Below are positions 29,561 through 34,389 of a stretch of 64,000 nucleotides of DNA, piece by piece; within the stretch, counting starts at the first letter, position 1; every line of letters begins with the position of its first letter. The notes below the pieces were generated by a model. The model was not told the origin of the DNA. It ran no database searches and saw nothing but the letters and a program-made list of their open reading frames with translations. This DNA is from Thermococcus siculi (GTDB lineage Archaea > Methanobacteriota_B > Thermococci > Thermococcales > Thermococcaceae). Made by a program: the position numbers and the translations under genes. The stretch lies in the NCBI RefSeq assembly GCF_002214505.1, contig NZ_CP015103.1, positions 868,001-932,000 of the forward strand, in the 5' to 3' direction.

Positions 29561-29587
29561 GGATCACGATTATTATAATCATGATCC
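29561..29587. promoter_or_regulatory. 27-bp palindrome covering the start codon of the ATPase-nuclease gene
   Basis: Inverted repeat with 13-bp arms, GGATCACGATTAT and ATAATCATGATCC, around one central T; 12 of 13 pairs match. The ATG at 29581 lies inside the right arm. A TATA-like TTTAAATATTC ends at 29560, so the transcript is probably leaderless and a protein bound here would block initiation. Candidate autoregulatory operator. Confidence 0.6.
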
Positions 29588-30939
29588 GTAAATTTGTGGA
29601 CAGAAAACGGGAGCTTGAGATCCTGGAGGAGCTCTACAACAGAGGGGCAAATTTGATCGTAGTGTACGGGCGGAGGAGAGTTGGAAAAACGACACTTCTG
29701 AGAAAGTTTCTTAAGGACAAGAGGGGGATTTACTTTCTCTGCTCCCAGAGGGGGTATGAAAAAGACCTCGAACGGTTCTCTGAGGCGGTAAGCGAGTTCC
29801 TTGGCATGCCGGTGAAGTTCGATAGCTTTGAAGATGCGTTTAGGTTCCTTGCAAAGCATGGAAAGCTCGTGGTGGTAATCGATGAGTTTCCCTACCTCAT
29901 AGAGGCCTACAGGCCCATAGTTTCGGTGTTCCAAGAGATAGTCGATCTCATAATCAAGGACTCCCAGGTCACTCTAATCCTCTCGGGCTCAAGTGTGGGG
30001 ATGATGGAGCGGAAGGTTCTAAGCTATAAGGCTCCTCTCTACGGCAGGGCCAGGGGTATAATGAAGCTGAAGCCCTTCCGGTTCTTCGACATGATGGAGT
30101 GGTACGGAAGGGATTTTGAGAAGCTCGTCCGCCTCTACGGCGTTACCTGGGGGGTTCCGAGGTACATGGAACTCTTAAATGACGGAAGCGACAAAGAGAT
30201 AATCGCAAACTTCTTTGAGCCAACGGCATTCCTCTTTAACGAGGCGAGGCTTCTGCTGATGGAAGAGCTTAGAAACCCGACGACCTACGCCCAGATCATT
30301 GAGGCCATAGCCCTGGGGAAGACGAGGCTCACCGAGATCGCCCAGTATGCCATGATGGAGGCGAAGGATCTTCCAGCTTACCTCAGGGTTCTCCAGGAGC
30401 TTGGAATAGTCAAGCGCGAGGTTCCAGTCACCAAAAAGGTCTCAAAGAGGGGGATATACACAATCGAGGACGAGTACTTCCGCTTCTACTACCGCTTTGT
30501 CAGCCCGCACTACGAGGACATAGAGGGCCTCAACCCCGAGCCTGCCATAGAGGACTTCAGGAAGAACTTCAACACATATCTGGGGACTACATTCGAAAAG
30601 GTCGCGAAGGAGTTCCTGATAATGCTCTCTGGCAAAGGGTATCTTCCCAGCAGGTATCATCGCTTCGGCCGCTGGTGGCACAAGGGCGAGGAAATTGATC
30701 TTATTGCTCTCAACGAGCGGGAGAGGAAGGCGTTGTTCGTCGAGGTGAAGTGGAAGGAACTGAGCGAGAGGGAGGCGAGGGGGATTTTGAGGGACTTGAA
30801 GAGGAAGGCGGAGCTTGTTGGGCTGGATAGTTGGGAGCACTACTATGGAATCGTGGCAAAAGATGTGGGGGGAAAGGAAGGACTGAGAGAGGAGGGCTTT
30901 TTGGTTTTTGACCTAGGGGACTTCCCCCACTACCGTTAA
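29581..30939 (+). CDS. Archaeal ATPase with C-terminal DUF234 (PD-(D/E)XK nuclease-like) domain
   Basis: A 452-residue STAND/AAA-like protein of the archaeal ATPase family. Walker A is VYGRRRVGKTTLL (about 28-40) and Walker B is LVVVIDEFPYL (about 95-105). A winged-helix segment follows near residues 255-280. The C-terminal DUF234 region contains EEIDLIALN and ALFVEVKWKE, the D and ExK pattern of PD-(D/E)XK nucleases. Such genes occur in many copies in Thermococcales; their function is unknown, and roles in defence, mobile elements or signalling are all guesses. There is no ribosome site, in keeping with a leaderless mRNA. Confidence 0.87.
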   Translation: MIRKFVDRKRELEILEELYNRGANLIVVYGRRRVGKTTLLRKFLKDKRGIYFLCSQRGYEKDLERFSEAVSEFLGMPVKFDSFEDAFRFLAKHGKLVVVIDEFPYLIEAYRPIVSVFQEIVDLIIKDSQVTLILSGSSVGMMERKVLSYKAPLYGRARGIMKLKPFRFFDMMEWYGRDFEKLVRLYGVTWGVPRYMELLNDGSDKEIIANFFEPTAFLFNEARLLLMEELRNPTTYAQIIEAIALGKTRLTEIAQYAMMEAKDLPAYLRVLQELGIVKREVPVTKKVSKRGIYTIEDEYFRFYYRFVSPHYEDIEGLNPEPAIEDFRKNFNTYLGTTFEKVAKEFLIMLSGKGYLPSRYHRFGRWWHKGEEIDLIALNERERKALFVEVKWKELSEREARGILRDLKRKAELVGLDSWEHYYGIVAKDVGGKEGLREEGFLVFDLGDFPHYR

Positions 30940-31563: not shown

Positions 31564-32157
31564 GAAGCTAAAAAAAGACCAATCACCCTCGAGGACATAA
31601 TAAACTCAGAGGACGTGCTCACTACCATTGCAACAAAAATTGCTAGTAGCGCAGAGCAAAAAGTAAGCGTAAAAGAAATAAAGCGGATGATAAAAGAATA
31701 TATTCCGTACATTAAGAAAATTGCAGATGCTTATCCCGAAGACCCATCATTCTACGACAAGATAATGCGAATTCCAGGCATACCAGATGTAGAACGAGAT
31801 ATCAAACCACTTAACCCAAAGCTATACATGGCAATAGAAGAACTTGCAGAAAAATTGAAGGATGATCTGAGAGAAGAAGAAAAGGTAGCAGAACACAACG
31901 ATGAAAGAAAAACCTCACCGCCCCTCGACCCCAACGTAAAAGTCGAAGTCCTCTCCATCCTCAACGGCCTCGGATTTGCGGGCTTTTCTGAGGAGGCAAA
32001 AAGAAAGGCCATCGAGAGGCTCTCCGCAAGGATAAGAGAAGTCTCCGTCGAGAAGCCAACGCCTGAAAATCTCTTAAAACTCGGCCTCTACGCCTTCTCA
32101 ATCGAAATAATCAAGAGGGGAGAGCTGGAGAGGATGAAAGAAATCGAGGGGCTTTAG
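31564..32157 (+). pseudogene. Uncharacterised protein, C-terminal part in the +1 frame (frameshifted continuation)
   Basis: This frame is open from 31531 to the stop at 32157 and encodes KEAKKRPITLEDIINSEDV and about 180 further residues. The sequence is charged and helical (EELAEKLKDDLREEEKVAEH; KRKAIERLSARIREV). No ATG is available before residue 20, and the only near-start is GTG 31615 without a ribosome site. Removing one A from the A7 run at 31552-31558 joins it smoothly to the preceding frame. It may be a natural frameshift, slippage-based expression or a sequence error. Family not recognised. Confidence 0.5.
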
Positions 32158-32239: not shown

Positions 32240-32280
32240 AACTTGCATCCCACAAGTAGCTTGCAGGGGTGCAAGTTAAA
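32240..32280. repeat. Left copy of the 41-42 bp repeat bounding the second ATPase
   Basis: Built of ACTTGCA/TGCAAGT elements: AACTTGCATCC, CACAAGTA, then GCTTGCAGGGGTGCAAGTT. It contains the ATPase stop codon. About 35 of 42 aligned positions match the copy at 33360-33401 in the same orientation; the mismatches are mostly the four bases in the centre of the palindrome. Confidence 0.75.
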
Positions 32281-33358
32281 GCTCCCTGAAGACTCTCGCG
32301 AGCACCGGGTCAGATATCGAGTACCTCCCCTCCTTCTTTTCCACGTAGCCCGACTTGACGAGGTTCTCAAGGAGCGAGGAGAAGTTGGAGTCGTTGATGT
32401 AGCCCGTCTTGAGGACGAGGTAATCCCTGATGTCCTTCCACCTCGAATGGCCGAGGGCTATTCCCTTAAGTATCAGCCTGTAGCGCGGGCTATAGGAGAA
32501 CAACTTTGAGAGCTCGCTCCCTACCACAGACTTGGCTTCCCTCATCACCTCATCAATGGCCTCCCTGTGCCCCAGCTTTCTCGTGGTTCTTATGTAACCA
32601 TACAAGGCCAGCCAGCCGACTATTCCGTCAAGCTCGCCAACGGCCTCCTCTATCTCCCGCTCCCTAGCCTTCACCCCAGCCTCCTCAAAACCTCTCCTCA
32701 GAAACTCCTCGCTCAGCTCCGGGCTAAAGCGTTCAAGAATTATGTCGTGGTGGTAGCGGCCGAAGAGTGGAGCCTCTGGATCATTAAACTTCAGGAAGTC
32801 GAAGAGCAGGCCAACCTCTGAGCCGGTTAGGACGAAGGTCAGGTTTTCGAGGTTGTCAACAGCGTAAGCCAAAATCCCGTCGTACCTCGTTGCCCCACCA
32901 AAGCGGAGGTACTGAGCCTCGTCGAAGGCTATAACAACTCTCCCAGCCTTCTCGCCGTACTCGTTCAGAGCCTCAAGGAGTTCCGTTATCGAGAATTCCC
33001 TCGAGCTTATCTCAACCTTAAGCCCGGAAACGCTTATTCCCCTCACCCGTTCGAGGAAGGCTTTAGCTTCCTCCATTATTTTCCGCCTTCCGCTCATGGC
33101 CGAGAGGAGCTTTTTACCAATCACGTACCTGCTGGCCGAGGAGAACTCCGAGTACGTCTGCCTCACGTCTATCTTTATCGAGGGGTTGGGGAGGTCGTTG
33201 AGGGCGACGTTCAGGAGGGAGCTTTTGCCGAGCCTTCTGAGGCCGAGGAGGAGAATCAACCTCTCTCCCCTTCCTATCGCCTCCTCAAACTCCTTAAGCT
33301 CTCTATCCCTGTCAAAAAGCTCTTCTCTCTTCGTCTTCGGGTAAGGTGAGAACAGCAT
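32276..33358 (-). CDS. Archaeal ATPase with winged-helix C-terminus, bounded by repeats
   Basis: A 360-residue archaeal ATPase. An N-terminal ELFDRDRELKEFEEAIGRGE leads to Walker A LLLGLRRLGKSSLLNVAL (about 40-57) and Walker B VVIAFDEAQYL (about 135-145), with a sensor-like TFVLTGSEVGLL. The C-terminal 90 residues form a winged-helix-like domain (GHSRWKDIRDYLVLKTGY). Unlike the ATPase at 29.6 kb it has no nuclease domain. ATG 33358 (MLFSPYPKTKREEL) is chosen; the longer frame upstream reads through the repeat and promoter. The gene fits exactly between two copies of a direct repeat. Confidence 0.85.
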   Translation of the reverse strand: MLFSPYPKTKREELFDRDRELKEFEEAIGRGERLILLLGLRRLGKSSLLNVALNDLPNPSIKIDVRQTYSEFSSASRYVIGKKLLSAMSGRRKIMEEAKAFLERVRGISVSGLKVEISSREFSITELLEALNEYGEKAGRVVIAFDEAQYLRFGGATRYDGILAYAVDNLENLTFVLTGSEVGLLFDFLKFNDPEAPLFGRYHHDIILERFSPELSEEFLRRGFEEAGVKAREREIEEAVGELDGIVGWLALYGYIRTTRKLGHREAIDEVMREAKSVVGSELSKLFSYSPRYRLILKGIALGHSRWKDIRDYLVLKTGYINDSNFSSLLENLVKSGYVEKKEGRYSISDPVLARVFREL

Positions 33359-33359
33359 T

Positions 33360-33401
33360 AACTTGCACCCCCACAAGTAACTTGCATCCCTGCAAGTTAA
33401 A
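33360..33401. repeat. Right copy of the repeat, directly upstream of the second ATPase
   Basis: AACTTGCACCCCCACAAGTA followed by ACTTGCATCCCTGCAAGTTA; starts one base from the ATPase ATG and covers the region where TATA box and start site would lie (CTTTTAACTTG on the minus strand). Contains a perfect 8-4-8 palindrome, AACTTGCA-TCCC-TGCAAGTT. Candidate operator or integration repeat. Confidence 0.75.
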
Positions 33402-33473
33402 AGGGTTTCCCTTGCGTGCGCTATACTCTGGGGGTTTGGGCTTGAGTGGGATTTTGAAAGGTTTATCACTCTA

Positions 33474-33493: not shown

Positions 33494-33552
33494 CATTTTG
33501 CAAAAATTTTTCACACCTCTCAACCCAAAAAAGGGTGGAAGGGTTCGAAAGC

Positions 33553-33562
33553 CTTTTAAATA
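33553..33562 (+). promoter_or_regulatory. TATA box of the ribosomal-protein superoperon
   Basis: CTTTTAAATA, upstream of the SPOUT methyltransferase, the first gene of the run leading to rpl3. A start site near 33585 is expected. Confidence 0.5.
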
Positions 33563-33618
33563 GTCTCCATAGACCCCAGTTCAGCGTTGAAGTGACCATA
33601 GCGAAGGATGACGGAAAA

Positions 33619-34389
33619 ATGGCCTGGCACGTCTTCATTCCAGATTCGCTCCTCGAAGAGACCGACGACCCGAAGATCAGGACGCACAAAGTCGGACAGA
33701 TAGCCAGGGCCTGCGCAATCTTCGGCGTCGAGCACGTCTGGATCTACAAAGCTGGCGGCAGGGACGGAAGGTTCATCAAAACGATCCTCGAGTACGCGGA
33801 AACGCCCCAGTACCTCAGGAAGAGGCTGTTTCCGCTCATGCCCGAACTCAAGTACGTCGGCGTCATCCCGCCGCTGAGAACCCCCCACCACAAGCTCAAA
33901 GGAAAGCCGAAAGTTGGAGAAATCCGCGAGGGCTTCGCCTTCAGGAAGGGACGCAGGGTTTACGCGGACATCGGCCTCGACGACCTCGCTATGGTGGAGG
34001 GGGACATCGAAGGGCGTGCAACGTTCAGGATCGTCTCGGTAAGGCCGCTCAGAGTGATACCAGCGAAGCCAGAGGAATACTGGGGATACAGGGTTCACCT
34101 CACGAGGAAGTCACTGGCGAAAACACTTAAAAAGGCCAGGCTGGATTTGAGCATCGCGACCTCTAGGAAGGGTCGCGACATAAGAGATGTGAAGCTTCCC
34201 CCGCTGGAGGGGGAGGTCGGATTGGTCTTCGGCTCACCGAGGAAGGGCGTGATCGAGCTCCTCGGCGAGGAGGATTATAACTTTGATCTAATCCTCAACA
34301 CCATTCCAAATCAGCGGACTGCCACAGTCCGCACCGAGGAGGCTTTGCTAGCCACACTCGCGGTGTTTAATCTCATAAGGAGGGATTGA
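33619..34389 (+). CDS. SPOUT-family RNA methyltransferase (COG2106-like)
   Basis: A 256-residue SPOUT methyltransferase of the group related to human C9orf114 and to archaeal 23S rRNA-modifying enzymes. N-terminal [20 protein letters not shown] and the C-terminal knot region ([38 protein letters not shown]) are characteristic; a central beta-barrel insert interrupts the fold. ATG 33619 has weak AAGGATGA; GTG 33592 would give a nearly leaderless start. It lies 2 nt before rpl3 and heads the operon, as in other Thermococcales. Confidence 0.85.

Follow-up and report, generated by a model that had tools for sequence, protein, structure and literature searches.

The window analysed here, a stretch of 64,000 nucleotides from Thermococcus siculi, carries an ATPase gene that is bounded at both ends by an imperfect direct repeat, which raises the question of what such repeats are for. 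A preliminary description offered two answers, an integration duplication with the gene as its cargo or a pair of operators. We favour the second: judging from the sequence, and with a probability of roughly three in four, the repeats are operators through which a winged-helix AAA+ ATPase regulates its own gene, and the 3′ duplicate that some subfamilies possess would serve as a substrate for precise deletion.

The repeats and the gene between them

The two copies lie in the same orientation and register at positions 32240-32280 and 33360-33401, as described. The stop codon of the gene (32276-32278) overlaps the downstream copy and its ATG (33356-33358, reversed) sits just inside the upstream one (Table 1). 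Each copy is indeed built of ACTTGCA and TGCAAGT half-sites, arranged as two tandem inverted repeats of 17-18 bp that follow the unit ACTTGCA N3-4 TGCAAGT with small departures and a period of about 19; the palindromic arms make the two copies match in inverted orientation too. The upstream pair of palindromes occupies the whole interval from the TATA-like box to the ATG, and a TATA/BRE-like element of similar kind precedes both clade A and clade B orthologs of the ATPase. The bases that differ between the copies were said to be mainly those of the loops, and this is true because loops outside the ribosome-binding site are free to vary; the start-proximal loop of the upstream copy, being the ribosome-binding site, is constrained and has to be excepted.

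Table 1 Features of the ATPase locus (positions in the window)
Feature	Position	Strand	Basis or remark
ATPase gene, 360 aa	32276..33358	-	AAA+/ATPase_2 domain and C-terminal winged helix; Pfam, AlphaFold, Foldseek
Putative upstream operator, start-proximal palindrome with Shine-Dalgarno GGGGGTG in spacer	33361..33378	-	Sequence
Putative upstream operator, start-distal palindrome, perfect ACTTGCA N4 TGCAAGT	33380..33397	-	Sequence
First palindrome of downstream copy, overlapping stop codon	32259..32276	-	Sequence
Second palindrome of downstream copy, spacer one base shorter	32241..32257	-	Sequence
Shine-Dalgarno-like GGGGGTG, 7 nt from ATG	33366..33372	-	Sequence
TATA/BRE-like promoter GAAACCCTTTTAA, abutting putative operator	33397..33409	-	Sequence
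Variable hairpin upstream of promoter, 10-bp arms, 4-nt loop	33472..33495		By eye
Convergent neighbour, family unassigned (cluster C7)	31615..32157	+	3′ end at or near repeat in several genomes
Putative RNA methyltransferase, conserved flank ahead of rpL3 operon	33535..34389	+	Defines shared locus

When the repeat was searched in the whole 2.03-Mb genome at up to two mismatches, three of four palindrome sites fell at the ATPase locus, and no further close palindrome that would mark a regulon was found. The hairpin upstream of the promoter varies in a manner of its own: across the upstream flanks of orthologs its arms differ between genomes while their complementarity is kept, and its loop is hypervariable.

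The ATPase is the sole gene encoded between the repeats, no transposase gene having been found there, and searches of the locus with Pfam, PADLOC, NCBIfam and PHROGs detected no recombinase, nuclease or integrase domain. In Pfam the protein matches ATPase_2 (PF01637) at 2.4e-18, with 67.2 bits against a curated cut-off of 33.2, and the MCM_C winged helix at 1.1e-9. Its AlphaFold model (pLDDT 91.9) includes a confidently modelled winged helix, and model and fold search place it with the AAA+ core and winged-helix fold of 2FNA and 2QEN; Foldseek ranks 2qen (PABY2304) and 2fna (SSO1545) best, then Cdc6/Orc1 2qby, with CED-4 also among the matches after the first two. Judged by its predicted structure, the protein belongs with the AAA+ ATPases that resemble Orc1/Cdc6 and STAND proteins and carries its winged helix at the C-terminus, and SSO1545 itself is included in the Cdc6/Orc1 structural family (PMC4599002). 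Known anti-phage defence models gave no strong match to the ATPase; the candidate model PDC-S27 matched it weakly (5.5e-9, PADLOC). A neighbouring DUF234 ATPase (29581-30939) matches the same candidate model at 1e-44, and PADLOC, NCBIfam and PHROGs searches of the convergent neighbour returned no match.

Paired palindromes ahead of the start codon

Orthologs of the ATPase, 67-84% identical, are present in about 25 of the 94 family genomes and are set apart from paralogs by a break in identity at about 57%; the Thermococcus and Pyrococcus labels of these genomes are assigned from named records and genus grouping. Zero-mismatch palindromes are largely confined to the gene: 16 of the 21 tallied adjoin an ortholog or its remnant, and the other five are solo sites lacking an ortholog. 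The T. siculi genome also encodes a clade B paralog (51% identical, G000:C1:147920-149002), and the clade B palindrome, ACTTACC N4 GGTAAGT, found in 31 of the 94 genomes with no control matches, almost always adjoins clade B ATPases, where it follows the TATA box and precedes the TTG start codon; in Thermococcus clade B it recurs at the ATPase stop codons. At the equivalent position, another three paralogs of this genome each have a palindrome of their own. The arms thus differ between ATPase subfamilies, as the clade A and clade B patterns illustrate, and the site is specific to the subfamily of its presumed regulator.

This layout extends well beyond close relatives. Our family set comprises 106 related AAA+ ATPase loci, almost all archaeal, which fall into 35 clusters. 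A palindrome with at least six of seven arm bases paired directly precedes the start codon in 97 of them, compared with control rates of 13% in shuffles and 25% in nearby sequence at -145 to -97. The start-proximal spacer carries a coding-strand G-run in 104 of the 106 loci and a C-run in none, mostly 4-9 nt from the start as befits a Shine-Dalgarno element, whereas a run in the distal spacer can be of either kind (71 G, 25 C). Palindromes at the start codon combined with a coding-strand G-run therefore point to a promoter-proximal operator and a ribosome-binding site in one. Eighty loci beyond the orthologs and paralogs described above were also inspected, and most have this layout; they come mostly from Thermococcales, Desulfurococcales, Thermoprotei, Hadarchaea, Thermoplasmata, Bathyarchaeota and Micrarchaeota but include a few bacterial ones, e.g. 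from Thermotogae.

The tandem palindromes of one locus share their arms (at least six of seven bases) in 55 of the 106 loci, compared with 3.8% between clusters, which is expected for one protein binding twice and not for RNA hairpins. That the palindromes are leader RNA hairpins, controlling translation or termination with no DNA-binding protein involved, is in our judgement highly improbable: the predicted folds of the leaders are somewhat more stable than those of shuffled sequences (z about -2) and the Shine-Dalgarno sequence lies inside the proximal spacer, but RNA pairing requires neither arms shared within a locus nor arms specific to a subfamily, the site abuts a TATA box, and of three leaders folded, one pairs across the two palindromes and does not form a separate hairpin from each. 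A palindromic site that overlaps promoter and start region, near-universal in its paired form and with subfamily-specific arms, lends the idea of a pair of operators good support, and the encoded protein most likely binds the repeats at both ends of its gene.

Co-variation between operator arms and the recognition helix was sought and rejected as a separate line of evidence: a first arm metric gave nothing, and the k-mer metric gave a weak partial correlation (r = 0.11, p = 0.018) that other protein windows equalled or surpassed. One association remains: all six clusters with a GTATC operator (those of L170, L190, L193, L202, L204 and L218, possibly related phylogenetically) begin the recognition helix with Asn-Ala, compared with none of 26 others, a suggestive if anecdotal hint of a specificity code.

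The second copy, solo sites and movement of the gene

Genomes in which the ATPase is present and the repeats are not conserved had been named as evidence against a special role for the repeats. Such genomes exist for the downstream copy only; almost every ortholog retains the upstream one. Most of the 106 loci have no downstream copy, and it is missing or decayed in Pyrococcus and in G020, G066, G039, G013, G025, G022 and G043. It is nonetheless not confined to one lineage: the upstream-downstream similarity of a locus exceeds 99% of the null in 28 of the 106 loci, where about one is expected, loci with a second copy just past the stop codon fall in several of the 35 clusters, and the two copies differ little or not at all in G021 and G035. 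Arm conservation in downstream and solo copies is 97-99%, compared with 72-75% for the loops.

Conserved arms with free loops would also suit a downstream pair that acts mainly as a 3′-end boundary, separating convergent genes as a hairpin or as a roadblock of bound protein and keeping its likeness to the operator because the ATPase binds it. The clade A and clade B pairs do often lie between the stop codons of convergent genes, and a boundary would give solo copies a reason to stay intact where a neighbouring gene ends; however, a convergent neighbour accompanies 20 of 28 loci with the downstream copy and 38 of 70 without it, a difference short of significance (p = 0.17). Neighbour orientation was accordingly rejected as the reason for the downstream copy, and we regard the boundary reading as quite unlikely.

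The idea of an integration duplication predicts empty sites with a single repeat copy, and these do exist. At the shared locus, the interval from the methyltransferase ahead of the rpL3 operon to an RNA-ligase-like gene, 13 Thermococcus genomes carry the ATPase, seven (G014, G023, G033, G038, G061, G063 and G071) have one repeat copy and no ATPase, and many have neither. The solo copies comprise two palindromes, of which only one is recognised in G063. Deleted or decayed remnants of the ATPase, some with internal deletions, are found in G047, G066 (second contig), G027, G067 and G029, and further solo sites lie at other loci in G001 and G068; one of the two G001 sites is a remnant, since ATGCTGTTCTC, the first codons of the gene, is still present.

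Three of the seven solo sites retain the orphaned promoter or its flank, which fits gene loss and not a pristine target. G071 is the sister of the filled genome G036 on the methyltransferase tree and keeps the promoter and one palindrome pair, after which its sequence matches the G036 right flank with 94% identity; G014 retains a promoter-like flank, and the left flank in G038 is common to the remnant-bearing G047. Recombination between the copies would explain these sites. It would explain only incompletely the solo sites of G033, G061, G063 and G023, for which a simple crossover is insufficient because no promoter lies left of the repeat; the one clear clade B solo site, in G041, is likewise promoterless. 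Left of the repeat at the four sites of G033, G061, G063 and G023 (L099, L101, L103 and L104) stands a block of 44-49 bp, AATGTTCTAAAACTGACATCATAGAACAAAAACGTGTAAAATCA, that was not found elsewhere in the 94 family genomes and beyond which the flank sequence differs. In different genomes (L071-L106) the outer edge of the repeat adjoins several right flanks that have no relation to one another, which suggests frequent rearrangement there. Near-perfect palindromes persist at solo sites L098, L099, L101, L102, L103, L106 and clade B L127, where the cognate ATPase is absent, and the G061 site shows a compensating arm change; intact palindromes at orphan sites are at odds with the neutral decay of a scar.

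The gene itself travels. Its orthologs are found at several chromosomal places, and the ATPase tree conflicts with that of the flanks. In G025, G022 and G043 an ortholog is inserted at another locus, and the sister genome G062, with flanks about 95% identical, has a site with neither the ATPase nor any repeat; comparison of G025 with this empty site reveals no obvious target-site duplication, although the junctions are inexact. Since the G062 site is repeat-free, the insert consists of promoter, operator and gene only, and on this sequence comparison the downstream repeat appears to have been neither required for the move nor left by it. Breakpoints exactly at the repeats were looked for in horizontal exchange and not seen in the best-resolved case, between G021 and G031, where a shared tract of 91-100% identity runs from about -400 to +750 within surroundings of roughly 80%. 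Between G036 and G054 homology begins near the promoter and stops at the stop codon, fast-evolving flanks blurring the ends.

These observations bear on a one-gene mobile element with attachment-like repeats, which the ATPase and a host recombinase would excise and insert at solo repeats. The syntenic single-copy sites and those at further loci, the architecture at both ends that recurs in several subfamilies with a sequence of its own in each, the scattered orthologs with their conflicting trees and the matching copies in G021 and G035 all speak for it. Against it stand the want of any encoded recombinase or nuclease domain, the absence of the downstream copy from most members, the repeat-free empty site in G062, an exchange that the repeats do not delimit, and promoters kept at some empty sites, which mark these as scars rather than targets; nor were relatives found among viral contigs (IMG/VR) or plasmids (PLSDB). 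We consider such an element unlikely, and of the integration duplication only the single-copy sites survive. A selfish unit whose Orc-like ATPase recognises the paired palindromes at both ends and promotes excision or replication of the unit as a 1.1-kb circle of gene and one operator, with reinsertion beside solo palindromes, which would then be kept as targets in gene-less genomes, seems to us very unlikely. The repeat-free site and the lack of a recombinase lead us back to probable duplicated operators that would permit precise loss and are unlikely to be the ends of a transposing element.

A proposed regulatory cycle and its parallels

We infer binding, repression and its trigger, the recombination route and the cellular role of the ATPase as follows. 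A dimer of the ATPase would bind each palindrome. The transcription start and the ribosome-binding site would then be covered by two adjacent dimers, and the gene would stay silent until the ATPase senses a signal that makes them let go of the DNA. Where a lineage has the second operator pair past the stop codon, this pair may aid regulation, by looping or as a roadblock to convergent transcription. It would also turn the gene into a 1.1-kb stretch between direct repeats, which ordinary recombination could delete precisely, leaving one operator pair as a scar.

Operators, mobility, target DNA or a biological role for this family, including SSO1545 and PABY2304, were not found in the open-access literature searched. 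A large archaeal AAA+ ATPase family with solved structures thus gains a probable DNA target ahead of nearly every gene, and, with arms specific to each subfamily, both the DNA specificity and the switching of Orc/STAND-like proteins become open to direct test. The 3′-end copy and the single-copy scars in turn illustrate how a gene may become precisely excisable once its operator has been duplicated.

The closest known relatives are SSO1545 (PDB 2FNA) and PABY2304 (PDB 2QEN), with which the ATPase has both family (PF01637) and full-length fold in common (E 2e-47 and 5e-76, respectively; TM-scores about 0.9). Orc1/Cdc6 initiators on origin repeats (PDB 2QBY) likewise combine AAA+ and winged helix, at 15% identity and a TM-score of about 0.5. 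These initiators recognise inverted repeats that have a G-rich element close by; unlike origin repeats, the ATPase sites lie at the ends of their own gene, within promoter and ribosome-binding site. Integron cassettes and site-specific integrative elements pair a single gene with a repeat and have an empty site with one repeat. Direct repeats similarly flank the ATPase and its empty site can hold one copy, but the locus is without an integrase, a repeat-free empty site exists, and the repeats are probably promoter operators. Autorepressors such as those of toxin-antitoxin systems and plasmids place tandem palindromic operators over their own promoter, just as the upstream palindromes overlie that of the ATPase. 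In contrast to such autorepressors, the ATPase is a single-gene AAA+ protein, the spacer of its putative operator doubles as the Shine-Dalgarno sequence, and some subfamilies possess a further copy at the 3′ end of the gene.
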